Shown here: in pieces, positions 20,658-60,230 of the stretch
Layout of the letters: every line of letters starts with the position of its first letter
How positions within the stretch are numbered: the stretch's first letter is position 1
Origin: Vulcanimicrobiota bacterium
Lineage (GTDB): Bacteria > Vulcanimicrobiota > Vulcanimicrobiia > Vulcanimicrobiales > Vulcanimicrobiaceae
DNA length: 64,000 bases
Assembly: GCA_027459645.1 (NCBI GenBank)
Contig: DAIDHQ010000006.1
Span: forward strand, 62,001-126,000
Direction: 5' to 3'
Program-made: the position numbers and the translations under genes
The notes under the pieces: generated by a model
Seen by the model: only the letters and a program-made list of their open reading frames with translations
What the model was told of the DNA's origin: nothing
The model's database searches: none

Positions 20658-20676
20658 CCGTTAGACGGCCGTTAGA
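20658..20676 (+). repeat. left subterminal double repeat of element B
   Basis: CCGTTAGACGGCCGTTAGA: two copies of the 8-mer CCGTTAGA separated by 3 bp (11-bp period, one helical turn). The identical 19 bp, with the same AAT before it, occur at 48600-48618 near the right end. Probable integrase arm site. Confidence 0.7.
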
Positions 20677-28530: not shown

Positions 28531-29231
28531 CCGGCCCTCTTCGCGGGCAGGGATGGGCTTGCCGCCAGACACCCCGCGGCGTTGGAAGCACTGTTTAGCT
28601 GCTCCGCGGGTAGTCCGAAGAGGAGAATCGGCTCCGCCGATGCCAGGACAGCCGCGGCGGTCACCGGCCCCCAATAGCGGGAGTCCCAGCTTCGCGGGTT
28701 ATCCGCATAGAGCCAGATTTGCCCGGGGCCAAGACGGTAGCGACCGGGCGGCCAGGCTAGGAGGGGGCGGCCGGACCTGTCGTGTCGGAGGGACGCGCTT
28801 TGGGGCAGCGGGCAGCCACTGATGGCCACCGCCAGGGACGACACGTCAACCTCGTCGCCGGCGACTGCTGCGACGGATTTCAGCAGGAGCTCGGTGTCGT
28901 CCGGACACGGCCCTGCGGCGAGATAGCCACGCTGCCGGCCGAGCTTTGCAACATCGACGGGTGCGCAGATGGCGACAAGCATGCCGCGCCGCACTCCGCC
29001 CGGCGGCAAAGGCGACAACCAGTAGATCCCGATCGGCATGCTGCCGGTGAAATTGACCCGCAGGTGAGCGCGTTGAAGTGCGATTACCGCGATGCAGACC
29101 ACGATACTGAGCATCGCGAACCTGAAGGCGCGCATGGTCTGCCCATCGGCGCAGGTAACGATCGCGACGGCTGCGGTAAGGGCCGCCGTGATCGCAAGCG
29201 TGAGGATCGCCATGGTAACCGGCTGACTCAT
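28443..29231 (-). CDS. traF: TraF-like signal peptidase (conjugation relic)
   Basis: A 262-residue inner-membrane S26-family peptidase related to TraF of IncP plasmids, which matures the TrbC pilin. Several membrane segments lie in the first 60 residues; NFTGSMPIGIYWLSPLPP contains the catalytic Ser and LLLKSVAAVAGDEVDVS the catalytic Lys. RSWDSRYWGPV is the usual C-terminal box. About 65 further residues overlap the helicase gene and look like a read-on tail. No trbC or pilin gene is present in the window, so it has no visible substrate. Confidence 0.82.
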   Translation of the reverse strand: MSQPVTMAILTLAITAALTAAVAIVTCADGQTMRAFRFAMLSIVVCIAVIALQRAHLRVNFTGSMPIGIYWLSPLPPGGVRRGMLVAICAPVDVAKLGRQRGYLAAGPCPDDTELLLKSVAAVAGDEVDVSSLAVAISGCPLPQSASLRHDRSGRPLLAWPPGRYRLGPGQIWLYADNPRSWDSRYWGPVTAAAVLASAEPILLFGLPAEQLNSASNAAGCLAASPSLPAKRAGWEWFRSSPDGSRASRASTAYASSRATIA

Positions 29232-29236
29232 GCCGA

Positions 29237-29866
29237 TCAGAACACGACGACGCGCGAGACGCTCGACACGAGAATCGGCGCACGCCTTGGCGCGACTACA
29301 CGGCGCGTGGGATGCGGAGTAACGCGCCGCACGACCCGCGTAGCCACCAGAACGGAAGCATGCATCGCGCTGCGCTCGCTGATTACGCGCGGAGCCGCGC
29401 CGACGTCGTAAACACCGGCAACGGCGAGCACGTGACGGACGTAGTCGGCGCCGCCATTCAGGCGGCCGGTGTTATACATACCGATCGCGTGACGCAGCGC
29501 CACTTGCCCGTTTCCAAAGTGGCGTGCAGCGATCGCGTAATCTGACGCCAATATCGTTGCACCCGCTCGCAGGTTCAAACACGGATCGAATACGGTGTCC
29601 ATACTCAACCCAAGATGCGCGAAGTTCATGCTGTCGATTTGCGCGATTCCGGCGTCGATAAGATGCCCAGCGCGGATCAGCTGACTTGCTAGCATCGCTG
29701 CGCTTTGGCGATCGCGCGGATAGTATGAGCGGCGAGCCGTGTCGTCGTCGATCGCGAACGGGTTCCCGCCGCTTTCCACTTGAACGATCGCGGCCATAGT
29801 CGACGGCGTCACATCTGGTGCGCATCGCGCAATCAGTGTCGCGAGCGCAAGCCCTTGCAGCATCAT
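29237..29866 (-). CDS. VirB1/TrbN-like lytic transglycosylase
   Basis: A 209-residue lytic transglycosylase of type IV secretion systems. The catalytic Glu is in PSTMAAIVQVESGGNPFAID, followed by LIDAGIAQIDSMNFAHLGLS and HAIGMYNTGRLNGGADYVRH, the standard SLT signature. A short N-terminal hydrophobic stretch suggests export. It opens the peptidoglycan for the conjugation channel. Its ATG overlaps the trbI stop by 4 bp; traF follows after 5 bp. Confidence 0.85.
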   Translation of the reverse strand: MMLQGLALATLIARCAPDVTPSTMAAIVQVESGGNPFAIDDDTARRSYYPRDRQSAAMLASQLIRAGHLIDAGIAQIDSMNFAHLGLSMDTVFDPCLNLRAGATILASDYAIAARHFGNGQVALRHAIGMYNTGRLNGGADYVRHVLAVAGVYDVGAAPRVISERSAMHASVLVATRVVRRVTPHPTRRVVAPRRAPILVSSVSRVVVF

Positions 29867-31107
29867 GGCGCACCGTCCGCATACGGAGCCGCGAGCACAA
29901 TGTCGCGGTCGACCAGAACGTCGAATTCGTAGCCGGGAGGGACTTCGAGCGTCGGCGGCATCTGGAGCTGACGCTGCGTGAGCCGAATGCTCGTGTTTCC
30001 GATTTGCTGGCCGACGGCACCGGCAATCGTTTGCCCGATACTCGGCGCGGCATAGATGCTCGACGATTGCTGCGGCTGGCTCAGTTGCGCGCCGGCGCCG
30101 ATGATGCTAAGCAGCAGCGCGGAGTTGAACGCTTTGTTGAGATGCTCGTCCACATTCGCTGCAAAGCCGGCGTATCCGGACGGATCCGTTCCGGACATCC
30201 CACCAATGTCGAGACTCGATCCGTCAGGGTAGAGCAGCCTTGTCCATGCGACGAGGACGCGGCGCTGGCCTTGCACGATCCGACTGTCGTACGTGCCGAC
30301 GAGCTTCGTGCCGCGCGGGATGAGCAGATACGTTCCCGTGACGCTGTCGAAGACGTCGTCGCGCACCTGCCCGACGATCGTGCCGGGAAGATCCGCGTTG
30401 ATTCCCGTGAGCAGCGTTGCCGGGATGATGCTGCCCGCGTGCAGCTCGTACGGCGATGGATCATCTTCTCGCGCAACCACTAGACGATCGTGCGATCCGC
30501 CGATGCCGGCGGAGGCGAGAAACGCGCTTCGCTCGTCCTGCGCATCCGGCGTTCGTGCATTCACGCCAAGTCCAAGCATCGTGGGATTGGACGGCATAGA
30601 ACTTGGCGCCGATTGCGGCGCGGGAAGTGTTGCTTCGCCGCCGGCACCCTCCAGCCGAATCAGGACCGGAGCGCCCGACGCTGCGTCAGAGAGCGCCTGC
30701 TGCCGCTCTTCACGCTCGCGCCGCGCTTGCGCAGCTTGCATCTGTTCTGCGGAGATCGCCGGTGCCGATGGAACGCGCGCCGTGCTCTCCGGTGCGAGTG
30801 CCGGAACGCGCGGTGCGATTGGAGGTGGCGATGGGAGCCGCGGTGGTGACGGCTGCGCATTCGGAACGCTGTTCCACCATGGCGTTTGATGCTCGGATGC
30901 TTTCATCAGCGGCGCAGAGCCGGAGGCATTTGCCGCACGCCGATGTCCGGCAGTCGAAATGCCGTACACGATCATGCCGAACAGCGCTGCCAGCACAAGT
31001 GCGGCCGTGAAGCCGGCCTTCGAGCTGATCCTGGTGACGCCGCGAACGCGTCCGCGCCAGCCACTCTCGTCGAGTTCGACGGGCGATTGAATCTGATTGC
31101 GATCCAT
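29863..31107 (-). CDS. trbI: TrbI/VirB10-family conjugation protein
   Basis: A 414-residue VirB10-like protein starting at ATG 31107 (the frame runs on to 31260 without need). One N-terminal membrane helix (GFTAALVLAALFGMIVYGIS), a long Pro-rich periplasmic linker, then the beta-barrel domain: ELHAGSIIPATLLTGINADL, GQVRDDVFDSVTGTYLLIPR, GTKLVGTYDSRIVQGQRRVL and FDVLVDRDIVLAAPY at the end. It bridges inner and outer membranes in the transfer channel. It appears full length. Confidence 0.9.
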   Translation of the reverse strand: MDRNQIQSPVELDESGWRGRVRGVTRISSKAGFTAALVLAALFGMIVYGISTAGHRRAANASGSAPLMKASEHQTPWWNSVPNAQPSPPRLPSPPPIAPRVPALAPESTARVPSAPAISAEQMQAAQARREREERQQALSDAASGAPVLIRLEGAGGEATLPAPQSAPSSMPSNPTMLGLGVNARTPDAQDERSAFLASAGIGGSHDRLVVAREDDPSPYELHAGSIIPATLLTGINADLPGTIVGQVRDDVFDSVTGTYLLIPRGTKLVGTYDSRIVQGQRRVLVAWTRLLYPDGSSLDIGGMSGTDPSGYAGFAANVDEHLNKAFNSALLLSIIGAGAQLSQPQQSSSIYAAPSIGQTIAGAVGQQIGNTSIRLTQRQLQMPPTLEVPPGYEFDVLVDRDIVLAAPYADGAP

Positions 31108-31111
31108 GACG

Positions 31112-31771
31112 TCAGTTCCCGTGTGTGATAATCGCCCGGCGCTGGTGCTTGCCGCTTCCCTCGACGAGCGCGATGCTCGCTGGCACACCGTCGACCACGT
31201 AGTATTGGCCGGTGAAGCGGTAGTTGACGAGCGTGTCGCCTCCATCACTGCCGACGGCAAACAATACGGGAATGTCGCTCATCCCCTGCGGCATCTGCAG
31301 ATACGTGTGCGTACCGTCGCTAAATGCACGAACTGGCTGCAGGCCGCGGTCGCCGCTCATCCGGTAGTTGAATTCAAGCTTGTCAATCGCGGTTTCGGGC
31401 ATTGGCGTGCTCGGCCGGATTCCGCGACCCGCAAACACCGTTGCAAAGTCGTGCTGGGGATCGTGCGGATACATGAAACCGATGCGCAGCATGGGTTTGC
31501 TGTAACTCGAGACGAGCATCAGATAATACGTGCGCCGATCGGTTGTAACGATAAGGTCGGTATGCAAACCGGCTTCCGTCGGTTTGATCAGCACGTGCGG
31601 CATGACATCGCTAGCCGAACCGCTTCTAGCCGGCGCGATCAGCCACCGCACGGAATCGCCGACGGCGACGTTGACGATCGATTCGCCCGGTTCGAGCACC
31701 AGGTCGCAGACGAAGAGAGGCCTGCAGCGCAACGTCGGCGGTGTGCGTTCACCGACGGGAAAGCGCAGCAC
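31112..31771 (-). CDS. trbG: TrbG/VirB9-family protein, N-terminally truncated
   Basis: The frame from GTG 31771 gives 219 residues with TrbG features: DLVLEPGESIVNVAVGDSVR, HVLIKPTEAGLHTDLIVTTD, RTYYLMLVSS and YVVDGVPASIALVEG. TrbG is normally about 300-330 residues with a signal peptide. Here the frame upstream (ITGPDGV preceded by a few codons) soon meets a TAG and the next gene, so signal peptide and about 80 residues are lost. It follows that the outer-membrane part of this conjugation system is probably not functional. Confidence 0.8.
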   Translation of the reverse strand: MLRFPVGERTPPTLRCRPLFVCDLVLEPGESIVNVAVGDSVRWLIAPARSGSASDVMPHVLIKPTEAGLHTDLIVTTDRRTYYLMLVSSYSKPMLRIGFMYPHDPQHDFATVFAGRGIRPSTPMPETAIDKLEFNYRMSGDRGLQPVRAFSDGTHTYLQMPQGMSDIPVLFAVGSDGGDTLVNYRFTGQYYVVDGVPASIALVEGSGKHQRRAIITHGN

Positions 31772-47190: not shown

Positions 47191-47412
47191 ATGGCGAAGG
47201 CATTACAACCGCTCGAAGATCTCGGCGACATTCTGACGCCGACCGACGTTCAACGCGTCTTGGGAATTGGACGCAACGCGACGTACGAATTGCTCGCTTC
47301 CGGCAAGCTGCCGTCGATCCGCGTGACTCCCCGCCGCATCATCGTGACGAGGCAGGCGCTCGAAGCATTCCTGGGTCTCGCGGCGAATACGTCGATTGCC
47401 GGGACCCCGTAG
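47191..47412 (+). CDS. excisionase-family HTH protein (element B)
   Basis: A 73-residue excisionase/MerR-type winged helix: ILTPTDVQRVLGIGRNATYE, LLASGKLPSIRVTPRRIIVT, RQALEAFLGL. Closely similar to the element C excisionase at 58725-58940. It probably bends the att DNA and directs integrase toward excision. The integrase start follows 11 bp later. Confidence 0.85.
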   Translation: MAKALQPLEDLGDILTPTDVQRVLGIGRNATYELLASGKLPSIRVTPRRIIVTRQALEAFLGLAANTSIAGTP

Positions 47413-47423
47413 GAGATACGTCC

Positions 47424-48583
47424 TTGGGGTACCTCAGGAAAATCGGAGACAAGAAGTTCCGCATCGTGTACGACGTCATATCGATCGACGGCAAACGCCG
47501 GCAAAAGACCGAGACCCTGTTCGGGGTAACGAAGAAGCCAGCTTTGCGCTTCTCGCGAAGCGCAAAGCTGGCGTCTTGGCCGGTGAGTGCACGCCGAACG
47601 CCGACATGACGATGAACGATCTGTTCGATCGCTTCATACAGTCCAAAGAGAATCGCTTAGCCGCGACAACACTGCAGCGTTACGAAGGTCTGCTGCGGCT
47701 GTACCTGCGGCCGGCGTTTGGCAAAAGGAAAGTCGCGAGCGTCAAAGCCGTCGACATTCTCGCAGCCTATGCTCAGTGGTCGAAGCGATCGGTCAGCCCG
47801 CGCACGGTTCGACACGCGGCTGAACTTCTGCGAAACGTGCTCCGGCGAGCCGTGAAATGGGAAATCATTCTTCGCAGCCCAGGGGCATCACTCGATGCCG
47901 ATGATCTGCCGAAGGTGCTCAAGCCCGAGTCGACGGTTCTCACGGAGCTCGAAGTCCACCAACTACTACGTGAAGCTCGAAACCCGACGCATCGGTGTAC
48001 GGCGCGTCACTATCTCACGGCATCCAGCACGTTCTATCCCGCAGTAGCGTTCGCGTTGTACACGGGAGCACGCTTGGGCGAAATCATGGCTATGCGCTGG
48101 CTAGACATCGACTTCCCCCAGCGCGTCGTCACGATCAGCCGATCGCTGAGCGATACGAAGCGGGCTGGAACGATCTACAAACGACCCAAGAACGACAGAG
48201 TGCGGACGGTGTGCGTCGCAGCGCCGCTGCTCGCGATTCTGCAAAGCCACAAGGCGGTGCAAGCCGCCGAGAAGATCGCCATGGGTCCGGCTTATCACGA
48301 CGAGGATCTGATCTTCGCCAAACTGGACGGCACGGCGATCCCGCCGTGGCTGTTCAGCTCGGCCTTCCGGAACTTCATGAAGCGTTCGGGAGTCCGCCGG
48401 GTTCGCTTCCACGATCTCCGCGATACCCACGCCTCACTGCTTGCCAAAGCGGGTGTGCCGATCGAGGTGATCTCAAAGCGGCTCGGTCACAGCGACATCA
48501 GCATCACCTACGATCGGTATATCACGGTCTACCGTGACCGTGATGCCGAGGCAGCGGAGGCGTTCGCCAAGATCGTGGCTTAA
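47424..48583 (+). pseudogene. tyrosine integrase of element B, frameshifted
   Basis: TTG 47424 with AGGAG 8 nt upstream begins GYLRKIGDKKFRIVYDVISI and DGKRRQKTETLFGVTKK, the AP2-like arm-binding N-terminus. At 47538 the frame is lost; from about 47550 the rest is read in another frame: LLAKRKAGVLAGECTPNADM (core-binding start), YTGARLGEIMAMRWLDIDFP (Arg), RVRFHDLRDTHASLLAKAGV (His-x-x-Arg), RLGHSDISITYDRYITVYRD (His, Tyr). The catalytic domain is complete, but the arm-binding domain is separated by the frameshift, which sits in a perfect 36-bp palindrome. Probably inactive, unless frameshifting or an internal start yields protein. Confidence 0.82.
47538..47573. repeat. perfect palindrome at the integrase frameshift
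   Basis: Arms of 16 bp (GCCAGCTTTGCGCTTC and its exact complement) around a TCGC loop. The right arm encodes the conserved KRKAG stretch of the integrase; the left arm replaces what should encode a run like EAEAL. This is what a quasi-palindrome-templated mutation would leave behind. Confidence 0.8.
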
Positions 48584-48599: not shown

Positions 48600-48618
48600 C
48601 CGTTAGACGGCCGTTAGA
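48600..48618 (+). repeat. right subterminal double repeat of element B
   Basis: CCGTTAGACGGCCGTTAGA, identical to 20658-20676 and in the same orientation, 17 bp after the integrase stop and 58 bp before att3. Confidence 0.75.
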
Positions 48619-48676: not shown

Positions 48677-48699
48677 TGGTAGCGCCAACGGGAATCGAA
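48677..48699. repeat. att3: internal copy of the tRNA-Glu 3' end
   Basis: A 23-bp match to the tRNA-Glu end (TGGTAGCGCCAACGGGAATC then GAA). It separates elements B and C. Confidence 0.85.
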
Positions 48700-48817
48700 T
48701 CTGAATCCGATGATCCCGACGAGTGACGCGAGGTGCTGAAAAGAGTTGTGGTGTCACCCTTTGGAACACTTGGCTGTCCCGACCGGCACCGGGCAAAACC
48801 GGCTCGTCTCACTGAGT

Positions 48818-48836
48818 CCGTGCCACAACGGTGCCA
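48818..48836 (+). repeat. left subterminal double repeat of element C
   Basis: CCGTGCCACAACGGTGCCA: two 8-mers 3 bp apart, the second with one mismatch. The partner is at 60090-60108. It lies 118 bp inside att3, matching the 113 bp seen in element B. Confidence 0.7.
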
Positions 48837-48892
48837 TAGCGGCGATTTAGAGACACAGACGAGCTCGGCCGGCGACGGCGCAGCCGAAAAAC

Positions 48893-49363
48893 TCACGGCA
48901 TCGGAAATTCCAAGCAGGATTCGCAGAGATACTCGCCGCTTGGCTTGAGCGTGTAACCGTCCTCACCAAGATTGATCCTCGACCGGCACGAAGCGCAGAG
49001 TGTTGGCTCAAAAGATGGCGGATTCTCGAGTTTCTCAAAGTTGTACGCGTTCGTACCGTACCATACATAAATTTCCGTTTCGAACGCTTTCCTGCACTCG
49101 TCGCATGTCTTCCATTCGCCGCGGTGCTCCTCGGCGTGATGATAGCCGCAAAGCGTGTAACGCCGATGGTTGCGGTCGCAACTGTTCCGGGCGTATGAGA
49201 ACATCTTGTAGTTCGCCGCATCATCGCAGACGAGTTTGCTACAGCAAAGCGTCTTGGTGAGATTGCGCGCTTTTCGGCATAGGCCACAGCGACTCGCCGT
49301 CGCGGCCTTGGGTTGTTTTCGGCGAGCCGGCTTTTGCCTGGTGCGTTGCTTTTTCGTCGCCAC
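48893..49363 (-). CDS. zinc-finger-like protein, unknown function
   Basis: A 156-residue protein with a very basic N-terminus (KKQRTRQKPARRKQPKA) and many Cys pairs: CGLCRKARNLTKTLCC, a C...C/H cluster around CDRNHRRYTLCGYHHAEEH, CDECRKAF, CASCRSRI and CESCLEF. These suggest three or four zinc sites, perhaps HNH- or rubredoxin-like folds. CxxC plus H-H could mark an HNH-type nuclease, but no clear catalytic motif is seen. First gene inside the left end of element C. Confidence 0.55.
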   Translation of the reverse strand: MATKKQRTRQKPARRKQPKAATASRCGLCRKARNLTKTLCCSKLVCDDAANYKMFSYARNSCDRNHRRYTLCGYHHAEEHRGEWKTCDECRKAFETEIYVWYGTNAYNFEKLENPPSFEPTLCASCRSRINLGEDGYTLKPSGEYLCESCLEFPMP

Positions 49364-49417
49364 GACGGGTTCTTTTGCAGGCTGCGGCCCTCTCTCCCTC
49401 GCTTGTCCGAGGCTACG

Positions 49418-50110
49418 CTAGTCCGCAACGTCCGTTGGTGTCGGATCGCTATTGCCAAGCACCTGTTCAGCCGCGGCCTCTGCAAGTCCATCTTCGCCCG
49501 CCGCCGGGTCGATCGGCCACGGCAAGGCCGATACCAGGTCCGCGACGAGCTTCAGAGTTCGGATCGCATCTGATGGGAGCCACACGTGTTGGAAATCGGG
49601 ATGAGTTGCCGAGTTTCTCAGGCGCCGTATGGCGTCCCACTGCTGGAAGTGCATGTCATCGACGAGTCCGTCTTCGTGAAGTCGCTTCAGTCGTTGAGCC
49701 ATCGACCGCGGATGCGGTACGATCGCACGCGCCCGAAAAAAACGATCTACTGCGAAATCGGCAACACGCAGGATCTGTTGACCGACGATCGTCGCCAATG
49801 GATAATAGAAAAAGCCGTAACCGAGGCCGCCCTTGGTGAATTCAAAAGCATTCACGATGTCGTTCGGAACGGCGTCAGATAGCGTGGCCAGCGCGACCGC
49901 ATCGATCCAATCGGCGCCATCCATCGGCGTTATCGAACCGTCGCGGTGGTCCAGTTTCACGAATGACGCGCTCACCGGGTCGGAATCGAGCCAATTCTGC
50001 CGCGTTACGTGCTTGAAGGGCTGCTTTCGCTCGTGCGATTCCATGCAGATCGTTTCGACGGCAATGCCATTCGCCACTCGCGTCGTCGCGAGAATGAGCG
50101 CGCGACCCAC
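49418..50110 (-). CDS. hypothetical protein, possibly DUF4145-like
   Basis: Up to 230 residues (ATG 50110; ATG 50044 is an alternative start). The C-terminal half has QQILRVADFAVDRFFRARAI, MAQRLKRLHEDGLVDDMHFQ, and WDAIRRLRNSATHP, a helical pattern with the R-N-x-x-x-H-P motif common in DUF4145 and related HEPN-like proteins. HEPN domains occur in defence RNases, which fits the neighbourhood, but the assignment is tentative. Confidence 0.5.
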   Translation of the reverse strand: MGRALILATTRVANGIAVETICMESHERKQPFKHVTRQNWLDSDPVSASFVKLDHRDGSITPMDGADWIDAVALATLSDAVPNDIVNAFEFTKGGLGYGFFYYPLATIVGQQILRVADFAVDRFFRARAIVPHPRSMAQRLKRLHEDGLVDDMHFQQWDAIRRLRNSATHPDFQHVWLPSDAIRTLKLVADLVSALPWPIDPAAGEDGLAEAAAEQVLGNSDPTPTDVAD

Positions 50111-50144
50111 ACTTTCTCGGTGTGGTACCTTGAAACTTTCTGGC

Positions 50145-50606
50145 TCAGATACGCCATTTGAGCTCTCTCATGAAATCCAATAGGTTGATGCAGCGGATGC
50201 CCTCGGCTCCGCAAACGTATGGAATTTTGGGACGGGCATCCGAACCACCAGTCTCTTGCGTGACGACCGCGAGCCCGCGTACTGAAGCGAGACCCATAAC
50301 CCAAGGGTCACCAGCGGACTTGTTCGTTCGCTCGTCAACCAGTTTCGGGTATCGAGCCATCAAGCGTGAAACACATGTCTGGACGTCGTCGTCGATCTCA
50401 TGAAACATTGTTGAGCGTTCCTTCGCCCACTTGTACAACTCGTCTGCCTTGGCTTCGAGTTCGCCCAGTACCTCACGCGAAGCAATCACGACGTTTCCAG
50501 CAATGCAATCATCGAATCGGTCCCAGAATGTTGGGACAACGTCCGGCGGATAGGCCCGAACCCAAGCGTGGATAAGTGCGCTTGTGTCAATACTGAAGGT
50601 CGGCAA
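50145..50606 (-). CDS. DUF4411 PIN-like toxin
   Basis: A 153-residue PIN-fold protein of the DUF4411 family: MPTFSIDTSALIHAWVRAYP with the first Asp, VVIASREVLGELEAKADELY with the conserved Glu, and KSAGDPWVMGLASVRGLAVV with the later Asp, then TQETGG. The acidic residues of a Mg-dependent RNase are present. It directly follows (no gap) the ImmA/IrrE regulator; this pairing is a known predicted type II toxin-antitoxin arrangement. Confidence 0.82.
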   Translation of the reverse strand: MPTFSIDTSALIHAWVRAYPPDVVPTFWDRFDDCIAGNVVIASREVLGELEAKADELYKWAKERSTMFHEIDDDVQTCVSRLMARYPKLVDERTNKSAGDPWVMGLASVRGLAVVTQETGGSDARPKIPYVCGAEGIRCINLLDFMRELKWRI

Positions 50607-51773
50607 TTAGCCCGTCCTCACGAGCCGGGCGATGTTGTCAAGATGCTTCACGCGCACGCCAAGGTATGTTGCGACATCATTCAGCGTTATTCGATCTTGC
50701 TCGTAGGTGTCGAGGACAAGCCCAACAAAAGGCCGACCCAAAAGGCCGACGGTTTCTCGGGGCATGTTGCGAGCAAAGCCTTTCTCGTCACCAGCAATTG
50801 CTTCTGCGCGAGCCATATGTTCTTCCATGAATCTCTGACGCGCCTTCCGATAAGCAGCATCTGTCGTTCGGCCGAGTATGAGCAGCCTGCGCAATACAAC
50901 CTCACGACTAACACCGAAATCGCTCGCAATAAGCCGAAGCGTATCGTCTTTCCAGATTGCGCCGGTATAGGCTCGCACATTTGCATTCCCGAGCAGTAGT
51001 GATCGCGGAACTAGCGCTGCGCCCGCGACGTGATTGCAGAACTGCTCGATACGTTGCACTTCGGGGGAGCGTGGCGCAGACTCGTCGATGTCACAGATTC
51101 CGCCGCGGTGGAGCGCAATGTGCGACAGTTCATGCAACAAGCTGAAAAGTCGCCCGGCCCACGCATCTTTGCGATTCACGGCCGCGACAGGAAGATGCTG
51201 CGTCGCAAGAGAGAACCCACGCATTTCACTTACTTCGACGCGGGCCATTTGAAAGACAAGGACGCCGCGATCTTCAGCGAGCTGTCGCCAACGATTGAAT
51301 GCGAGCCGTGGTTCCTCGTGTACAGGCTCCCCGGCGCCCAAAAAAGCGCGGAGGCTCTCGCCAGTCGATTCTGGATCGTCATCGATGGACGCGGTGAAGC
51401 GGAAAGAGGGCGGCTCTTCGCCCAGCTCTCGAAAGAGCTCCAACGCCACATCTCGATGATAGGCAGCGCTACGCAGATCAAGCCGAAGCTCGGGAGAGTA
51501 GATATCCGCCACTTCGCCCGGCAGTCGGCGGAAGTCACTCTGCACACGGAATGCCGTGGGCACCTCAGACAAGTAAAAGACGGCAAGGGGCCTCTTGTAG
51601 ACCTGTGCCAGCTTTCGCAGTTGTGGGATCGTCGGTTGATCCGCGCCTTGCTCCCAACTTGAAAGCTTCTCTTCGGAAACAGACGCCTTTTGTGCAGCGA
51701 CGGCTAAAGAGAGGCCCGCCTCGTCGCGCGCCCACCGGAGAATCTCGCAGTTAGTTCGAGCTTTTATCGTCAA
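50607..51773 (-). CDS. Xre-ImmA/IrrE metallopeptidase antitoxin/regulator
   Basis: A 388-residue two-domain protein. Residues about 8-60 are an Xre HTH (LRWARDEAGLSLAVAAQKAS, LSSWEQGADQPTIPQLRKLA). The C-terminal part is an ImmA/IrrE (COG2856) Zn-peptidase with RLFSLLHELSHIALHRGGIC (H-E-x-x-H) and IEQFCNHVAGAALVPRSLLL. It likely represses the operon and neutralises the adjacent PIN toxin, with the peptidase possibly controlling its own or another repressor's stability. Confidence 0.88.
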   Translation of the reverse strand: MTIKARTNCEILRWARDEAGLSLAVAAQKASVSEEKLSSWEQGADQPTIPQLRKLAQVYKRPLAVFYLSEVPTAFRVQSDFRRLPGEVADIYSPELRLDLRSAAYHRDVALELFRELGEEPPSFRFTASIDDDPESTGESLRAFLGAGEPVHEEPRLAFNRWRQLAEDRGVLVFQMARVEVSEMRGFSLATQHLPVAAVNRKDAWAGRLFSLLHELSHIALHRGGICDIDESAPRSPEVQRIEQFCNHVAGAALVPRSLLLGNANVRAYTGAIWKDDTLRLIASDFGVSREVVLRRLLILGRTTDAAYRKARQRFMEEHMARAEAIAGDEKGFARNMPRETVGLLGRPFVGLVLDTYEQDRITLNDVATYLGVRVKHLDNIARLVRTG

Positions 51774-51903
51774 TTAGAATTCCCAAGTGAGACAATACCG
51801 ACGACGGTCGTAAGTGGAAGGGTCCTCGCCTCCGTTGTCCCGCCGAACGCGCGCGTCCAACCCGCAAGCCCACCTTTTCGCGATATCTGATGCAATGTCG
51901 TTC

Positions 51904-53388
51904 CTATGTCGGCGATTCCGGCGCCAATGCTCGGAGCGAGGCCGCCACTTCGGTGAACTCGGCGAGCGCAGCTTCGAGGTCTTCAACAATTTCGGCTGCC
52001 AGGACGTGCGGTTCGGGAAGGTTGGCGGCGTCTTCAAGCGATTCGTCGCGCAGCCAGAACAGGTCAAGGCTCACTTTGTCGCGCGCGATTATCTCGTCGT
52101 ACGTGTAACGATGAAACCGCTCGGATTCGGCACGTTGTGCTCGATTGTCGGCGCTGTAGCAGGCGACGAAGTCGTCGAGATGTTCACGCCGTAATGGGTT
52201 CTCCTTCAGCGTGAAGTGCATGTTGGTGCGCAGATCGTACACCCAGAGCGCTCGCGTTGACGGCGTTTCTGAAGCAGGCTTCCGATCAAAGAAGAGAACG
52301 TTTGCCTTGACGCCTTGAGCGTAGAAGATTCCCGTCGGCAAGCGTAGCAGCGTATGAACGTCGCACTCGTGAAGCAAGCGGCGGCGCACGGTCTCGCCAG
52401 CTCCACCCTCGAAGAGCACGTTATCGGGTACAACGACCGCTGCGCGGCCCTCTATTTTCAGCATCGTCTTGACGTGCTGGACGAAGTTCAGTTGCTTGTT
52501 GGAGGTCGTCGCCCAGAAGTCGTCGCGCACGACGGTCAGATCGTCGCGGCGGGATTCGCCGTTCTCGCCCACGATCGTAACCGATGACTTCTTGCCGAAC
52601 GGCGGATTGGTGAGCACCATCTCGAAGCGCATTCCCGGATCGGACTTGAGCGCGTCGTCAACGCGAATCGGGCTCTCAGCGTCTGCCGCCGTGATGCCGT
52701 GAAGAAGCAGATTCATTGCGCAGAGCCGCGCGGTATTGTCGACGATCTCCCATCCGTGCAAGGCTTCATACCGAAGTTGGTGCTTCTGGTCGGGATCGAG
52801 CAAGCCGGCTCGTGCGATGTGCTCGAAGGCCGCGAGCAGAAAGCCGCCAGTCCCGCAGGCCGGATCGCAGATGGTCATGCCCGCTTGCGGTTGCATAACG
52901 TCGACGATTGCGCGAATTAGGGGGCGCGGCGTAAAATACTGACCGGCGCCGGACTTCGTGTCCTCGGCGTTTTTTTGTAGCAGGCCTTCGTATGCATCAC
53001 CTTTCACATCGGCATCGAGCGTCATCCACCGCTCTTTATCGATCAGGTCAACGATCAAGCGCTTTAGCTTCGCTGGGTCTTGAATACGGTTCTGCGCCTT
53101 CCTGAAGACGACGCCGAGCATGCCTGGATGCTTGCCGAGTTCGGTCAGAATGTGGCGGTAATGAACTTCTAGTTCGTCTCCGTCAAGGCGAAGAAGCGAC
53201 GGCCAATCAAGACCATCCGGGACGACTGATGGTCGATTGAATGGTGCGAGTGTCTGTTCGTCCGCCATCTTCAGGAAGAGCAGATACGTCAACTGCTCGA
53301 CGTAGTCGCCGTACGACAAACCGTCGTCACGGAGCACATGGCAGTAATTCCAGAGCTTTGCGACAAGCGCACCTGATTCGTTTACCAA
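51904..53388 (-). CDS. hsdM: type I restriction-modification DNA methylase subunit
   Basis: A 494-residue N6-adenine methyltransferase (HsdM). N-terminal helical domain (YGDYVEQLTYLLFLKMADEQ), GAGQYFTPRPLIRAIVDVMQ, SAM motif I DPACGTGGFLLAAF, motif IV MVLTNPPFGKKSS, and PDNVLFEGGAGETVRRRLLH. Works with HsdS to methylate and with HsdR to cut. It overlaps hsdS by 7 bp and is last in the operon R-S-M. Confidence 0.95.
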   Translation of the reverse strand: MVNESGALVAKLWNYCHVLRDDGLSYGDYVEQLTYLLFLKMADEQTLAPFNRPSVVPDGLDWPSLLRLDGDELEVHYRHILTELGKHPGMLGVVFRKAQNRIQDPAKLKRLIVDLIDKERWMTLDADVKGDAYEGLLQKNAEDTKSGAGQYFTPRPLIRAIVDVMQPQAGMTICDPACGTGGFLLAAFEHIARAGLLDPDQKHQLRYEALHGWEIVDNTARLCAMNLLLHGITAADAESPIRVDDALKSDPGMRFEMVLTNPPFGKKSSVTIVGENGESRRDDLTVVRDDFWATTSNKQLNFVQHVKTMLKIEGRAAVVVPDNVLFEGGAGETVRRRLLHECDVHTLLRLPTGIFYAQGVKANVLFFDRKPASETPSTRALWVYDLRTNMHFTLKENPLRREHLDDFVACYSADNRAQRAESERFHRYTYDEIIARDKVSLDLFWLRDESLEDAANLPEPHVLAAEIVEDLEAALAEFTEVAASLRALAPESPT

Positions 53389-54695
53389 GCCACAACCTCC
53401 GATTTCGGCCTTGACGGAGCACCGTTACGCTTTGCCAATGCCCTTGTCGCGCGATCCGCACCGGGAGTGACTGACGCAGCTGAAACGACACCTTCGCCAT
53501 GCGACTGCGAAACAAGGCGCCCGGAAAATGCCATGTCTAAGATGGCGCGTCGGAGGCGCCGAATCTGCAGCCGCCCTTTCACCGCAGCGGTCGCGACGCG
53601 TTCGCATGCGCTGACCTGCAGAGCGGTCTGTGAGATAAGGCGGCTTCGCTCTTCGGGTGGTGGCATCGGGATCATCAAATCGCGAATCATACCCTGACTG
53701 ATATTCGGCTGTGCCCCACCTTTGGCCGAATCGATCAGGTCGCACCTCATCGCACGCAGACATAACCATAAGAACGGTACGAGCTCCGCTTCATGTGGCT
53801 CTATGGCGCATACGGCTTGGTTTGTGGCGGCTGAGTCCAGGTCTAGGATGCCGAGTTTTCCGACCGTGGCACCGTACATGGCCATCATCAGGGTCCCCCG
53901 TCTCAGCAATTTTGCACTCGACGATGCTAGGCCGGTGTCGGAGATGCGTTCTGCTGTTGCGCGCACATGAGAGTCTCCCAATTCGCCTGACTTGACCCAC
54001 GGTATAGTGCCGCAAAAATTCTCGACTTTTCGGCGTGACGGGGTGCCGCCGCTACTCGTTTTTGCAATGGTCGACAGCTTTACGGATGGCCACCTGGATG
54101 ATCGAACGGCCCTATACGCTGCCTCAGCTAGTGCGTTTGCTCGATGTTCCACGTGTGTTAGCGATGCTTCGGCGGCGTCGAGGCGGGAGAATTGTTCTTC
54201 GATGACTTCGACGATCTGCCGTTGCTCGGAAGGAGGCGGAAGCGGTATCGGAAGTCGACGCAGGTCCTCCTGCGGTAAGTGATTGATCGTGCTTCCGGTA
54301 ACCAGGCTATCAAAGGTCCGCGAATAGCCGTAGTGGCGCAGGAGGTAGAATAAATACTCCGGCATGAGCGCAGGCGAGCATCGCACACGATGAAGTGCTT
54401 TCTGGAAATGCACGTCGGTGGCGCCCCTTCGCCATATTGCCGCCCGGCCGACTTCTCCGCCCTCGCAGACGACCACATCACCTTGCTGGAGAGCAAATTT
54501 TGCAGATTCTTCTTCCGTAAAATCCATCGTCGGCAGGTCGTCAACGGCGAACGCACCCCACTGCACGTCGCGATTTCGAAGGTATGCCTTTGGTCTGGCA
54601 CCTACCTTCGCTTTCGGAGAGAGCATCTTTCCAAGCTGAGTGTCAGCAACCTCACACAACAAAACCAGGCGCCATCCGTCTGGCATAACACTCAT
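53382..54695 (-). CDS. hsdS: type I restriction-modification specificity subunit
   Basis: A 437-residue HsdS with two target-recognition domains (about 5-155 and 200-360), each closed by a conserved helix: LPIPLPPPSEQRQIVEVIEE and LMIPMPPPEERSRLISQTAL. FDSLVTGSTINHLPQEDLRR and AKGGAQPNISQGMIRDLMIP are the matching junction motifs. The two halves bind the two parts of a bipartite DNA site; the recognised sequence cannot be read off. Starts 4 bp inside hsdR. Confidence 0.93.
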   Translation of the reverse strand: MSVMPDGWRLVLLCEVADTQLGKMLSPKAKVGARPKAYLRNRDVQWGAFAVDDLPTMDFTEEESAKFALQQGDVVVCEGGEVGRAAIWRRGATDVHFQKALHRVRCSPALMPEYLFYLLRHYGYSRTFDSLVTGSTINHLPQEDLRRLPIPLPPPSEQRQIVEVIEEQFSRLDAAEASLTHVEHRANALAEAAYRAVRSSRWPSVKLSTIAKTSSGGTPSRRKVENFCGTIPWVKSGELGDSHVRATAERISDTGLASSSAKLLRRGTLMMAMYGATVGKLGILDLDSAATNQAVCAIEPHEAELVPFLWLCLRAMRCDLIDSAKGGAQPNISQGMIRDLMIPMPPPEERSRLISQTALQVSACERVATAAVKGRLQIRRLRRAILDMAFSGRLVSQSHGEGVVSAASVTPGADRATRALAKRNGAPSRPKSEVVAW

Positions 54696-57460
54696 GCCGC
54701 GAGCGTCTCGTTCAATTCGTCGAGCAACGGGTTCAGAGCATCACCGAACACTTCGTGCGCTTTTCCGAGCCCGCCGTGCTGCGAGAACGGCGTATACTGG
54801 AAGTCGTCGGGCGATATTGCGAGGCTCGCCGCAATATGATCGCGGATACGTTCGAGCCACTGCGTTTGTTCTGTGGTAAAAGTGCGACCAGCCTGTTTCT
54901 GCTGGAGCATCCATCCGGCAAAGCGTTCGTTGACACGCTCTGGAAACGGGACCAGTTGCTCGTCCTGGTTTAACGCAAAGCGCACGATTTGAACGATGTC
55001 GGCCAGCACGCGAGGGCCGGAGCCCCGCACCTTCGACTTGTCGAGGGTTTCGTACGCGGCCCACAGATTCTCCGGCGTCCAATGCTGTGGCGTGCGGCCA
55101 ATGGCATTGGCCAATTCTTTAACCTCTTTCCACGTCAAGCGATGTTTGTACGGGCGGCTGTAGAGAATCTGCAACGCGGTGATCTCGTCCTTGTGCTCAT
55201 CAATGTATGCGCGAAACGATTCGACGGTCTTGCGGGCACGGTCCGCAGCATCAACCGAGTAATCCGCCCCGAGCAACCGGTCTGCCGATGTTTCGTCGAT
55301 CACTTGATCGTAGCTGCGCCGCAGCTCGACCAGCTTCTCTCGGAAAGCGGGGTTATCGGCAAGCGGCCCAACCGCTTTATCGATCATTCGCGCCGCCACG
55401 GCATCACATGTTTCCGGACTGGGCTGCTCAAGGCCCGTTTCCCATTGAGCGGCTTCGTATTGCCTATCGGGATCGAGCGCGTCCACGATGTTCTCGGCCA
55501 ACTCTTTGAGCGGGACACCGGCTACTGCCTCAAGCTCTTCGCGGTCTTGCTTAGAGAGGCGTAAGTTGAGCCGGGCGATGCGTGATGCGATGGACGATAC
55601 AAGGCTCTTCTCGCGAGAGCCCAATGCGAGATTATGCAAGAGCTTATCGAAGCCGAGTTTGGGATTGCGATCCATCGGCGTCGTGTCATGAAGGTCGGCC
55701 TCTGTAACGCCGACCGCGTCAACGATTACAAAGCGGTCCTTTACCTTGGCATCGGGTGTCACGCCTTGCAAGTCGGTCGGGTTGATGACGCGCACCCCGC
55801 GGCCCTTCATCTGTTCGAAGAACTGTCGCGAGCGGACCATGCGCATGAAGAACACGCACTCGATCGGCTTCACGTCCGTTCCGGTCGCGATCATGTCAAC
55901 GGTTACCGCAATACGGGGATTGTAGCTGTTGCGAAAGTCCTGGAGCAGTTGCTCGGCCGTTTGACCTTGCGAGCCAGACTTATAGGTGATCTTGGCGGCG
56001 AACTCATTGCCCTTACCGAATTCTTCGCGCACGATTTGGACGATGTCGTCGGCGTGGCTGTCGTCCTTGGCGAAGATCAAGGTCTTCGGAACGTGCGTGC
56101 GTCCCTCGAACAGCGTTGGAAGACTGTCGCGGAAAGCTCGCACGATGGTTCGAATCTGGTCTCTGGCGACAACCTTGCGGTCGAGTTCCTTGGCATCATA
56201 TATGATGTCATCGTCAAGTTGTTCGAAACGCCTTTCGCGTGTCTGCCGGTCGCGAAAGGCAGTCACCAAGCCGGCGTCAATCTTCGACCCCTTGGCGCTG
56301 ATCTCGGTCGCAATTCGGTATACGTCGAAGTCGACGTTCACGTTGTCGGCCACCGCCCGCTCGTGATTGTATTCCATCACCAGATTTTGGTTGAAAAACC
56401 CAAGGGTCTGCTTCCCGGGCGTTGCCGTCAAACCGATGATAAACGCGTCGAAGTACTCCAGCACTTGCCGCCACAAGCCATAGATAGAACGATGGCACTC
56501 ATCGACGATGATAACGTCGAATGTTTCGATGGGAACCGCTGGGTTGTATGCGACTTCGACCGGCTTCGCGGGCTGCAAATCGTAGGCCGATTCTTCGTCG
56601 AGTTCTTCCGGAAGATCGGGTTCGCCCTTGAGAATCGAATAGAGGCGCTGAATCGTGGAGATGACGACGCGCGAAACGCCGTCGATGCGATTCGAACCGA
56701 GACGCTGGACGTTGTACAGTTCGGTAAACTTACGGCCGTCGTCGGGCGTTGAGAACGCCTGAAACTCTTTGAGCGTCTGCCGTCCGAGATTCGCACGATC
56801 GACGAGGAAGAGAATCCGGCGCGCTCCGGCATACTTGATGAGCCGATAGGCGATATTGGCGGCGGTGAAGGTCTTGCCCGAGCCTGTGGCCATCTGGATG
56901 AGGGCCCGCGGCCGGCCGTGCTTGAGCGATTCCTCCAAATTGCGAATCGCCTCGGCTTGTGCAGACCACAGGCCTTGTTCGTTGAGCTCCGGGAGATCGC
57001 GAAGTCGGGCGCGCAAGGTCGCACGTTCGGCCCCGATCTCTGCGAGCGTCTCCGGTCGATAAAACGTGAACACTTGGCGGCTCGCGGGGTCTGCATCGAA
57101 GCCGTTCGTGAAGCGCGTCTCTACGCCGGTGGATTCGAATGCAAACGGCAGCGGCTTCACGAGCGCGGAAATCCCCTCAGGTAAGCCCGCGGTATATTTG
57201 CCCGATTGCCGCTCGACGCCGGTGAGCGTCGAACCAGCCTTCTTGGCCTCGATCACTCCGGCGGCTCTGCGGTTGACAAATAAAAGATAGTCGGCTGCGT
57301 CGTAACCGCCGTTCATTTTGAACTCGCGAACCGCGACGCCAACGCCGGCGCCAAGATTCAGTTTCTTGTAGTCCTGGACAATCCACCCGCATGCGCCCAG
57401 TTGGCGATCGATCTCCATGCGCGCCCGGGCTTCAGGGTCCAGGTAGTCCTCGACGGCCAA
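54692..57460 (-). CDS. hsdR: type I restriction-modification endonuclease/translocase
   Basis: A 922-residue HsdR. Nuclease domain with D57 and E71-x-K73 (DAADYLLFVNRRAAGVIEAK), then SF2 motor: motif I LIQMATGSGKTFTAANIA (about 187-204), motif II VIIVDECHRSIYG, motif III GLTATPGKQT, motif VI near MKGRGVRVINPTD. The C-terminal third is the helical region that docks on HsdM/HsdS. First gene of the operon, 197 bp from the divergent DUF4160 gene with a palindrome between them. Confidence 0.95.
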   Translation of the reverse strand: MAVEDYLDPEARARMEIDRQLGACGWIVQDYKKLNLGAGVGVAVREFKMNGGYDAADYLLFVNRRAAGVIEAKKAGSTLTGVERQSGKYTAGLPEGISALVKPLPFAFESTGVETRFTNGFDADPASRQVFTFYRPETLAEIGAERATLRARLRDLPELNEQGLWSAQAEAIRNLEESLKHGRPRALIQMATGSGKTFTAANIAYRLIKYAGARRILFLVDRANLGRQTLKEFQAFSTPDDGRKFTELYNVQRLGSNRIDGVSRVVISTIQRLYSILKGEPDLPEELDEESAYDLQPAKPVEVAYNPAVPIETFDVIIVDECHRSIYGLWRQVLEYFDAFIIGLTATPGKQTLGFFNQNLVMEYNHERAVADNVNVDFDVYRIATEISAKGSKIDAGLVTAFRDRQTRERRFEQLDDDIIYDAKELDRKVVARDQIRTIVRAFRDSLPTLFEGRTHVPKTLIFAKDDSHADDIVQIVREEFGKGNEFAAKITYKSGSQGQTAEQLLQDFRNSYNPRIAVTVDMIATGTDVKPIECVFFMRMVRSRQFFEQMKGRGVRVINPTDLQGVTPDAKVKDRFVIVDAVGVTEADLHDTTPMDRNPKLGFDKLLHNLALGSREKSLVSSIASRIARLNLRLSKQDREELEAVAGVPLKELAENIVDALDPDRQYEAAQWETGLEQPSPETCDAVAARMIDKAVGPLADNPAFREKLVELRRSYDQVIDETSADRLLGADYSVDAADRARKTVESFRAYIDEHKDEITALQILYSRPYKHRLTWKEVKELANAIGRTPQHWTPENLWAAYETLDKSKVRGSGPRVLADIVQIVRFALNQDEQLVPFPERVNERFAGWMLQQKQAGRTFTTEQTQWLERIRDHIAASLAISPDDFQYTPFSQHGGLGKAHEVFGDALNPLLDELNETLAA

Positions 57461-57560
57461 ATGCCAACCTCACCAGCAACGGAGGCACCGCAAGGTGTCT
57501 TGCAGGCCTAAATACTGCGCCGACCTTGTCCAGGCCTAGAACCGCTGGACCCCATCGGCC

Positions 57561-57589
57561 GGATAGTATCGCATTTTGCTACACTATCC
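57561..57589. promoter_or_regulatory. palindrome between hsdR and the DUF4160 gene
   Basis: GGATAGT...ACTATCC with an inner GCA/TGC: nearly symmetric over 29 bp. Each strand carries an extended -10-like box inside it (TGCTACACT on plus, TGCGATACT on minus), so it may be both an operator and a divergent promoter core. Confidence 0.45.
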
Positions 57590-57621
57590 GCCTCGCGTCC
57601 AAGGGTCGCCCCGCGGTAGGC

Positions 57622-57650
57622 TTGAAACCAAAAGGCGTTTGGGTTATAGT
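57622..57650 (+). promoter_or_regulatory. promoter of the DUF4160/DUF2442 pair
   Basis: TTGAAA (57622-57627), 17-bp spacer, TATAGT (57645-57650). The expected start point, 57657-57658, coincides with the GTG start codon, so the message is probably leaderless. Confidence 0.65.
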
Positions 57651-57657
57651 GGGGCCC

Positions 57658-57912
57658 GTGAGTAGTGTTCGGATCGGCGGCATCATTTTTCAACTATTCC
57701 CAGTCGATCACGAACCACGGCACGTTCACGCACTTTACGCGGGCATCGAAGTCATCGTTGACCTCCTCGATGACCGAACGGTAGCCCTTGCAGACCGGCC
57801 AGACCGAATTTCACCGGGAAACGCCAAGCGCAGTGACGTGAAAAAGATTTTGAGGGTTGCGGCAGAGCACTTCGATGAATTGGTCGCGGCCTGGGAGAGA
57901 ATGCATCCATGA
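57658..57912 (+). CDS. DUF4160 protein (toxin-antitoxin-like pair)
   Basis: An 84-residue protein from GTG 57658. IGGIIFQLFPVDHEPRHVHA is the DUF4160 signature (H-x-P-x-H-x-H), followed by DVKKILRVAAEHFDELVAAW. DUF4160 is regularly encoded just upstream of DUF2442, in mobile DNA, and the pair is suspected to be a toxin-antitoxin or regulatory module. Overlaps the next gene by 4 bp. Confidence 0.82.
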   Translation: MSSVRIGGIIFQLFPVDHEPRHVHALYAGIEVIVDLLDDRTVALADRPDRISPGNAKRSDVKKILRVAAEHFDELVAAWERMHP

Positions 57913-58343
57913 GTAAGCCCAAAGCACGCATCGACGTTACCGACGAGCAGATCGAGGCAGCGATCGCGCTGGCAAAGCTACGCGAGCCGTATCGGCCAAA
58001 AGCAGTCGCCGCGGTGTACCGCAAAAAAGAGGACGTGATCGCCATCAAATTGGCGACCGGCGTGGAATTGGCGATTCCGCGCAAGCTGTTGCAAGGGCTG
58101 GAACATGCGACGCCTGAGCAAGTCGGCGAAGTTGAGATATTGGGACCGGGTTCGAGCCTGCATTGGGAGTCGCTCGACGTCGACCACTACGTCCCAAGCC
58201 TCATCGAAGGCGTCTTCGGAAACCGTCGCTGGATGAGCGAGCTCGGCAAACTCGGCGGCAAGGCGCGCACCGAAGCGAAAGCGCGGGCTGCTCGCAAGAA
58301 CGGACGCAAGGGCGGTAGACCGCCCAAGAAGACCGCCGCCTAG
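57909..58343 (+). CDS. DUF2442 protein
   Basis: A 144-residue protein. AIKLATGVELAIPRKLLQGL and GSSLHWESLDVDHYVPSLIE are the DUF2442 core (the '-W-x-x-L-D-x-D-x-x-v-P' end). A very basic tail follows (AARKNGRKGGRPPKKTAA), likely nucleic-acid binding. Partner of the DUF4160 protein. Confidence 0.82.
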   Translation: MSKPKARIDVTDEQIEAAIALAKLREPYRPKAVAAVYRKKEDVIAIKLATGVELAIPRKLLQGLEHATPEQVGEVEILGPGSSLHWESLDVDHYVPSLIEGVFGNRRWMSELGKLGGKARTEAKARAARKNGRKGGRPPKKTAA

Positions 58344-58676
58344 CAGCCCGGCGAACACCCAACCTTTTGCCGGTCGGCGGCTGAGCGCAGCGACCCGCCT
58401 CATCGGCTGTGCGTTTGTACGCACAGCGACCGGCTTGCGTCGTGAAAAATCGCAAATCGGTGCAGTTCTTGCGTAGTGAAGCATGCAGGCCGGGTTCACT
58501 GCAGCGTAGCAGCCGGGTCCAGGGTTTGCCCGATAGGGCCGAGCACTGCGAGCCCTGGACGCGGCTGCTAAAATGAATCGAACGTCGGACTGCAAGCACA
58601 GGCCACGCTCCTGCGATATAATTGGTGTAGCGATTCATACTCGACTTTCGCCCGCAATATAATGCCCGTGAAACTG
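58344..58676. other. gap rich in inverted repeats, excisionase leader
   Basis: No gene is supported. It holds a perfect hairpin CTGTGCGT-TTGT-ACGCACAG (58407-58426) and a long inverted repeat, AGCAGCCGGGTCCAGGG (58508-58524) with its complement at 58553-58569 (16 of 17 bp). A TATAAT at 58617-58622 starts a leader that resembles the element B leader over about 100 bp. Confidence 0.5.
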
Positions 58677-58711
58677 CCCTGCAACGAGAGCGTTGCGGGG
58701 TTTTCTTTTTT
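58677..58711 (+). terminator. leader hairpin/attenuator upstream of element C excisionase
   Basis: CCCTGCAACG-AGAG-CGTTGCGGGG (10-bp stem with one G-T pair), then TTTTCTTTTTT. It lies 14 bp before the excisionase ATG, within the leader, at the same place as in element B. Confidence 0.75.
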
Positions 58712-58724
58712 TGGAGCTGGCACA

Positions 58725-58940
58725 ATGAATGACTCTTCACCACTCGCAGCTGCGCGCGACGTGTTGACGGTGCGCGAAGTGCAGCATGTGCTCGGCATCG
58801 GGCGCAACGCGACGTACGAGCTGATTGCATCGGGACGCTTGCCCTCGATTCGTGTGACCGCTCGCCGGATCGTCGTGACGAGGAAAGCGCTCGAAGTGTT
58901 CCTGGGCCTTGCGCCGAATACCGGACACGAAGAGCGATGA
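58725..58940 (+). CDS. excisionase-family HTH protein (element C)
   Basis: A 71-residue winged-helix excisionase from ATG 58725 (GGAG 8 nt upstream). VLTVREVQHVLGIGRNATYE, LIASGRLPSIRVTARRIVVT, RKALEVFLGLAPN: strikingly close to the element B excisionase, while the integrases are much less alike. Its stop overlaps the integrase ATG (ATGA, 58937-58940). Confidence 0.87.
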   Translation: MNDSSPLAAARDVLTVREVQHVLGIGRNATYELIASGRLPSIRVTARRIVVTRKALEVFLGLAPNTGHEER

Positions 58941-60196
58941 AGGGCCATATCACACGCGGTCGCGTAGACGGAACATGGTATTTGCGGGTCGAGCTCCCGC
59001 GCGATGCAGGCGGCCAGCGCCGGCAGCGCCGCGAGACCGTGCGCTGCACAAAAGCCGAAGCACAACGGCGCCTGCGCGACCTGTTGCGCGAAGTGGAAAT
59101 GGGCGGGCACGCCGATGGCGCGCGCGTCACAGTTGCAGCTCTCGCGCAGCGTTGGCTCGATTCGACTGAACATCGCGTGACGGCGCGGACCTACGCGTTC
59201 TACGCCGCGCATGTGCGCCTCTATATCACGCCCTCGCTCGGATCGCTACGAGCAGAGCAGCTGCGCCCCGCGCACGTCGAAGCAGCACTCGCAGCGTGGA
59301 GACACGGCGAGCGTAACGACAAGGAGCAAGGCTCGCTCTCGGCGCGCACGGTCGCGCACGTTTTCAACACCCTGCGTACGCTGCTACGATGGGGCGTGAA
59401 GATGGGGATGCTCGTCCGCAACGTCGCAGATGCGGTTGAGCCGCCGCGCTACGAACGCAAGGAGATGCGTTCTCTGGAATCGACCGGTGTCGCAAAGCTA
59501 CTCAAAGCTGCACAGGGCCGCGATCTGCAAGCCGTGATCGCCGTCGCAATCGGCACGGGTCTGCGCCGCGGCGAGCTGCTGGGGCTGCGTTGGTCCGACA
59601 TCGATTTTGTTGCTCGTCGGCTAACCGTGCGTCGTTCCGTAGAAACGGTGAAGGGCGTCACGCGCACGAAGCCGCCGAAAACCGCACGCAGCGCACGCAC
59701 GATCGCCCTCCCACCATTCGTTGTAGATGTGCTGCGCGATGAATACGCGAGAATGGAATTACTGCGCGGCAGCGCGGCCGATGAAAACGCGTGGGTTTTC
59801 GTGCGTCGCGACGGCTCGCCGTGGGAGCCGGGGGCATTCTCCTTGGCCTTCGCTCGCTTCGTAAAGAGCGCGAAACTGCCGCACGTGCGCTTCCACGACC
59901 TGCGTCACTCGTTCGGAACGCTTGCGCTTGCGTCAGGCGTCGATCTGCAAACGGTTTCACGCGCCCTCGGGCATGAGTCGGTCGCGATCACCTCGCGAAT
60001 CTACGTCCACGCCATCGACGCATTGCAGGCCGATGCGGCGGAACGGATCGACGCGCTGCTCGGCCCCGCTGTTTCCGGCGCAATGTTGTCCGTGCCACAA
60101 CCGTGCCACGCGACTTCTCTGATAAAGAAAAAGCCCTGTAAAACGAGGCCGAATTTGGTAGCGCCAACGGGAATCGAACCCGTCTTTGCCACGTGA
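58937..60196 (+). CDS. tyrosine integrase of element C
   Basis: A 419-residue tyrosine recombinase. Arm-binding AP2-like domain (ITRGRVDGTWYLRVELPRDA), core-binding domain (WLDSTEHRVTARTYAFYAAH), catalytic domain with Arg (GTGLRRGELLGLRWSDIDF), His-x-x-Arg (HVRFHDLRHSFGTLALASGV), His (RALGHESVAITSRIYVHAID) and the Tyr in SRIYVH. All active-site residues present. The last codons (LVAPTGIEPVFAT) are read from the antisense of the tRNA-Glu gene, so the C-terminus crosses the att core. The right-end arm repeat is also inside this ORF. Confidence 0.92.
   Translation: MKGHITRGRVDGTWYLRVELPRDAGGQRRQRRETVRCTKAEAQRRLRDLLREVEMGGHADGARVTVAALAQRWLDSTEHRVTARTYAFYAAHVRLYITPSLGSLRAEQLRPAHVEAALAAWRHGERNDKEQGSLSARTVAHVFNTLRTLLRWGVKMGMLVRNVADAVEPPRYERKEMRSLESTGVAKLLKAAQGRDLQAVIAVAIGTGLRRGELLGLRWSDIDFVARRLTVRRSVETVKGVTRTKPPKTARSARTIALPPFVVDVLRDEYARMELLRGSAADENAWVFVRRDGSPWEPGAFSLAFARFVKSAKLPHVRFHDLRHSFGTLALASGVDLQTVSRALGHESVAITSRIYVHAIDALQADAAERIDALLGPAVSGAMLSVPQPCHATSLIKKKPCKTRPNLVAPTGIEPVFAT
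60090..60108 (+). repeat. right subterminal double repeat of element C
   Basis: CCGTGCCACAACCGTGCCA: two perfect 8-mers 3 bp apart, 46 bp from att4, inside the integrase ORF. Matches 48818-48836 at 18 of 19 bases. Confidence 0.75.
60124..60149 (-). terminator. terminator of tRNA-Glu (supplied by element C)
   Basis: On the minus strand GCCTCG-TTTTA-CAGGGC (one mismatch) followed by TTTTTCTTT, 6 bp downstream of the tRNA CCA end. Confidence 0.6.
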
Positions 60197-60230
60197 AAGG
60201 CGGCTGTCCTAACCGATAGACGATGGCGCC
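60156..60230 (-). tRNA. tRNA-Glu (UUC), island attachment site
   Basis: Reads as a complete cloverleaf: acceptor GGCGCCA/TGGCGCT, D arm GTCTATCGGTTAGGAC, anticodon loop CTTTCAC (UUC), T arm CGGGTTCGATTCCCG, encoded CCA. Its 3' part is the att core (att4) repeated at 48677, 20517 and 12841. Confidence 0.93.

Follow-up and report, generated by a model that had tools for sequence, protein, structure and literature searches.

Quasipalindrome-associated template-switch mutation was modelled by Ripley in 1982 and is known from a hotspot in the Escherichia coli thyA gene and from the lacZ reporters of Lovett and colleagues (PMC7202029). In this process, a nascent strand pairs with itself in a short stem, is extended along its own sequence and returns; the repeat becomes more perfect as a result, and the reading frame is often shifted. 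In E. coli, the mechanism is established (PMC7202029). A comparable homogenisation of inverted-repeat arms has been reported in yeast coding genes, where multi-nucleotide changes perfect short repeats and where one case likewise reaches arms of 16 bp (PMC8604942). On the scale of whole mobile elements, the closest described systems are CIMEs and tandem accretion, with att sites on both sides, a broken integrase and a tandem neighbour that occupies the same tRNA 3' end (PMC5704250).

The case described herein concerns the integrase gene of a mobile element in a soil bacterium and lies in a window of 64,000 nucleotides, which is the whole stretch of DNA that was analysed. As in quasipalindrome mutation, an imperfect repeat appears to have become perfect, with several bases altered at once, a frameshift, one arm perhaps templated by the other and a short loop that is not inverted. 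Unlike the classical systems, the window case is natural, comes from an uncultured phylum, was not selected in a reporter and shows lineage-specific changes in both arms. Multi-nucleotide coding changes that perfect a short repeat are shared with the yeast genes, where the replacements are mostly in frame (PMC8604942), whereas the deletion in the window breaks the frame. The surroundings resemble CIMEs and tandem accretion in the three features named above. In contrast to a CIME (PMC5704250), the integrase of the element, referred to here as element B, is nearly whole, broken but not lost, and its excisionase gene is intact.

An 18-bp sequence of the tRNA-Glu 3' end is present in three copies on the plus strand of the window. 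The first (20523–20540) is the left att repeat of element B; the second (48682–48699), which the broken integrase adjoins, is both the right end of element B and the left end of element C; and the third (60161–60178) lies within the intact tRNA-Glu (TTC) gene (60156–60230, minus strand). This tRNA gene is the integration target, and it also adjoins the integrase in five relatives (L003–L006 and L008). The arrangement is read here as two tandem elements, B at 20.5–48.7 kb and C at 48.7–60.2 kb. Element B encodes TrbI, CagX, an S26 peptidase, a UvrD helicase and a TonB receptor, in addition to an MFS protein, a chromate transporter, a histidine kinase and a phosphoesterase; its label of "metal-resistance" island derives from the chromate transporter. 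TrbI, CagX and the S26 peptidase, encoded at 26470–31771, belong to a conjugation system of which the region holds a part. In element C (48682–60178), large minus-strand open reading frames resemble, by inspection of their translations, the R, S and M subunits of type I restriction-modification systems. The intact integrase of element C (58937–60196, plus strand) is 33% identical to integrase B over 325 residues.

Directly 5' of integrase B, an intact gene encodes an excisionase-like HTH_17 protein of 73 residues (47191–47412, plus strand; Pfam HTH_17, 1.8e-9), with an NCBIfam excise domain at 1.8e-5, under that model's cut-off, and a dN/dS of ~0.11 relative to the closest relative, L003. The integrase gene that follows is divided between two plus-strand frames. 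Frame A (47424–47609) begins with a TTG start at 47424, just 3' of an AGGAG motif, and encodes 38 native N-terminal residues and then 23 frameshifted ones before a TGA stop at 47607–47609. Frame B (47606–48583) begins with an internal ATG and holds the whole core-binding and catalytic domains, with Phage_int_SAM_3 from residue 2 and Phage_integrase at 1.9e-23 to 2.3e-23, which identifies a tyrosine integrase. The frameshift parts the N-terminal 38 residues from these two domains. No Pfam model matches the integrase N-terminus, that of the intact L003 included, and the N-terminal ~60 residues are therefore called arm-binding by position alone. The core-binding and catalytic domains and the att repeats at a tRNA 3' end are those of an arm-binding, tRNA-targeting integrase; in the window, the N-terminal arm-binding domain is not in the same protein.

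The switch from frame A to frame B, for which a −1 shift would restore the full-length reading, coincides with a palindrome. Its left arm, GCCAGCTTTGCGCTTC (47537–47552, plus strand), and its right arm, GAAGCGCAAAGCTGGC (47557–47572, plus strand), are exact complements over 16 bp and enclose the 4-nt loop TCGC (47553–47556, plus strand), for a total span of 36 bp. The loop is the same in most relatives and keeps its orientation. Among hairpins with a loop of at most 12 nt, the palindrome is the only one in the 64 kb whose arms reach 11 bp. As single-stranded DNA, the palindrome folds at −25.2 kcal/mol (z = −7.4), and the corresponding sequences of the relatives at −7 to −13. A 72-bp stretch containing the palindrome occurs once in the genome, since the second match is the same locus on the opposite strand; this uniqueness rules out the insertion of a repeat or MITE. 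An intrinsic terminator is ruled out by the missing T run after the hairpin and by the location within coding DNA, and a conserved functional hairpin by its absence from all relatives. No second copy of the palindrome allele was found in viral contigs or in the sole other genome of the genus, and a plasmid search returned nothing but a spurious 57-bp match.

Six close relatives, all from metagenome-assembled genomes (MAGs) of Candidatus Eremiobacterota and recovered again in an order-wide search, carry the integrase unbroken. Their proteins are mostly 83–89% identical to the window integrase (L003, 89%; L004–L007, 83%; L008, 86% over the best segment). At the DNA level, L003, the nearest relative available for comparison, is 86% identical. 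L008 contains a run of N and L007 ends at a contig edge; the palindrome region is complete in both. All six start at the same position after GTAGGAG and stay in one frame through the palindrome region, with the peptide GVT(K/R)KQAEA(L/I/M)LAKRKAAV across the site. The initial annotation had placed a perfect inverted repeat with 16-bp arms exactly at the frame change, and both are seen in the window. It had also described the KRKAG encoded by the right arm as conserved; this holds for KRKA, while all close relatives carry alanine (KRKAA) in place of the final glycine. The alignment to the nearest intact integrase, proposed there as a check on whether the palindrome had been imperfect before, agrees with that expectation: the repeat is present and imperfect in 6/6 relatives, and a core stem of 7 bp, GCGCTTC/GAAGCGC, was probably already in the common ancestor with L003, since each of its bases is common to L003 or to the outgroups. 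The DNA alignment to L003 has a single gap in the entire integrase gene, namely 1 nt missing from the left arm of the window. As side observations, the arms of a perfect hairpin in a related genome (L042:1180) measure 17 bp and its loop 6 nt, and in L015 (G079), the genome from which the closest integrase relative comes, integrase matches number at least 20 and include several partial ones, which hints at many decayed elements.

The 16 arm pairs, numbered from the outside, were listed in a linear alignment for the window and five relatives, and 11 of them are able to form in at least one relative. At pairs 2, 3, 7, 8 and 9, the relatives have C.C, A.G, T.G or C.G, A.A and A.A, respectively. 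Strictly, four of these pairs are unpaired in all five relatives; at pair 7, four of the relatives have a G.T wobble and L005 has C-G, which could pair. In the window, all five are Watson-Crick pairs, each through one window-only substitution, and no other arm position carries one (5/5 complete pairs). The completing substitution lies in the left arm for pairs 3, 8 and 9 (47539, 47544 and 47545 are the window-only substitutions there, with the 1-nt deletion beside 47543). For pairs 2 and 7, it lies in the right arm, at 47571 and 47566, each opposite an unchanged left-arm base; the 47566 change is synonymous (AAG to AAA) and that at 47571 replaces Ala by Gly.

These observations favour, with a probability of roughly 0.8, quasi-palindrome template switching as the process that turned the imperfect repeat into a perfect one and broke the reading frame in the integrase of a tRNA-Glu-targeting element. 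The gene would have carried a natural imperfect inverted repeat, at whose 7-bp core stem the nascent strand may have folded back during DNA synthesis; one arm would then have been copied from the other before the strand returned, and the outcome would be a perfect 16-bp hairpin, one deleted base and a shifted frame. Before-like states are seen in the relatives and the after state in the window, and it is the polymerase mechanism connecting them that we infer. The loop, which is not inverted, fits intramolecular switching (PMC8604942). The initial annotation had likewise seen a template-switch footprint, with the right arm as the template. Such a footprint is well supported, as all window-only arm changes make pairs; the right arm is not just an unchanged template, since it holds two window-only changes that pair with unchanged bases of the left arm. 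A single right-to-left switch alone does not account for 47566 and 47571, and the homogenisation is two-way or stepwise: since 2/5 pairs owe their completion to the right arm, there would have been several switches, or the two right-arm substitutions would have come before the switch.

An artefact of sequencing, of the library (fold-back) or of assembly, in which the integrase of the organism is intact and one arm was miscopied in the consensus, is unlikely. The genome is a draft of 47 contigs with 96.55% completeness and for that reason probably a short-read MAG, and fold-back errors arise at the same type of sequence. The state of the remaining gene is also what an intact integrase would lead one to expect: the downstream part in frame B has no stop and a dN/dS of 0.10 relative to L003, equal to the value between intact relatives, and the window lineage has accumulated 39 synonymous and 7 nonsynonymous changes. 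Since the rest of the gene still bears the mark of purifying selection, the break is either recent on the window branch or an error of the draft sequence. Against the latter, the repeat of just 36 bp fits inside one read, so that the majority of reads would need to carry the error, and the two right-arm changes, which do not break the frame, are unexpected from one-way copying.

Another reading dispenses with a single polymerase switch. The hairpin would have been perfected in both directions by mismatch repair within a folded single strand, exposed for example in conjugative transfer or on the lagging strand, and the resulting two-cistron integrase would remain partly functional. This combination is considered quite improbable.

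Ordinary decay, that is, a chance 1-nt deletion together with unrelated substitutions that happened to form a palindrome, is very improbable. In its favour, ~4% of sites outside the arms, in the 3' part of the gene, carry window-only substitutions. Against it, every one of those in the arms falls at an unpaired position and completes a pair. The left arm arose through three substitutions and the deletion, and just 3 of the 257040 outcomes of one deletion and three substitutions in a 17-nt left arm are exactly complementary to the right one (~1e-5 by chance). In 30 dinucleotide shuffles, the longest hairpin reached 12 bp (0.1 per window) and one of 16 bp never appeared; by extrapolation from these shuffles, the latter is expected at ~4e-4 per window. 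Furthermore, the rest of the integrase gene is free of decay.

The domains of phage lambda Int are able to influence each other in trans, and a split yet working integrase, in which the stub and a translationally coupled fragment act together or the fragment retains reduced activity, can be envisaged. The frame A stop overlaps the internal ATG in an ATGA at 47606–47609, this ATG coincides exactly with the beginning of the core-binding domain, and the downstream part is still strongly constrained. The same ATGA letters, however, are simply part of the coding sequence in most of the intact relatives, which makes the overlap accidental rather than a product of the mutation; the internal ATG at 47606 has no good ribosome-binding site ahead of it; and the constraint may merely reflect a recent break. 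In addition, arm-binding domains are reported to be essential for the mobility of such integrases (PMC8138268), and a working split enzyme is accordingly given very little credence. Programmed −1 frameshifting stimulated by the hairpin, which would yield full-length integrase and for which the required −1 shift and the location of the hairpin where the two frames overlap might speak, is hardly credible, given that frame A has no X XXY YYZ slippery heptamer between 47424 and 47604 and that the relatives neither possess the hairpin nor need the shift.

Under the template-switch reading, the likely products of the gene are a stub of 61 residues and, provided that translation starts at the internal ATG, a fragment with the core-binding and catalytic domains but without the arm-binding one. 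Both integrative and excisive recombination by the broken integrase have probably been lost. Two copies of CCGTTAGA, 11 bp apart, lie at the left end of element B (20658–20676, plus strand; copies at 20658 and 20669) and two more, equally spaced, at its right end (48600–48618, plus strand; 48600 and 48611); the pair is also found downstream of the integrase in the relatives. At both ends of element C (48818 and 60090) stands CCGTGCCACAAC, once on the left (48818–48829, plus strand), while the right end has two copies of CCGTGCCAC, 11 bp apart (60090–60109, plus strand). The two elements differ in their short end repeats, and each has one end with two copies 11 bp apart. Taken singly, the short end motifs of B and C have no significance against shuffles; they are good arm-type site candidates nonetheless, by their place at the element ends and, for element B, by their conservation in relatives.

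If the end motifs are arm-type sites, integrase C would differ in its arm specificity and could not easily excise element B. The genome yielded no close second copy of integrase B; the best match apart from it is 33–34% identical. Together with the different candidate arm sites of integrase C, this makes it plausible, judging from the sequence, that element B is stranded, or "frozen", in the chromosome. Tandem elements can, for their part, move together (PMC5704250).

The kind of mutation is already known, and the window is a new natural example of it. It offers a well-documented natural case of a probable template switch that broke a recombinase gene, with before-like relatives and the after state at hand, in a phylum without genetics. 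Given alleles from the same species, one-event and several-event models could be told apart by the direction of correction, which alternates among the five pairs. For the biology of such elements, the locus indicates that a mobile element may be stranded by a mutation invited by its own coding sequence.
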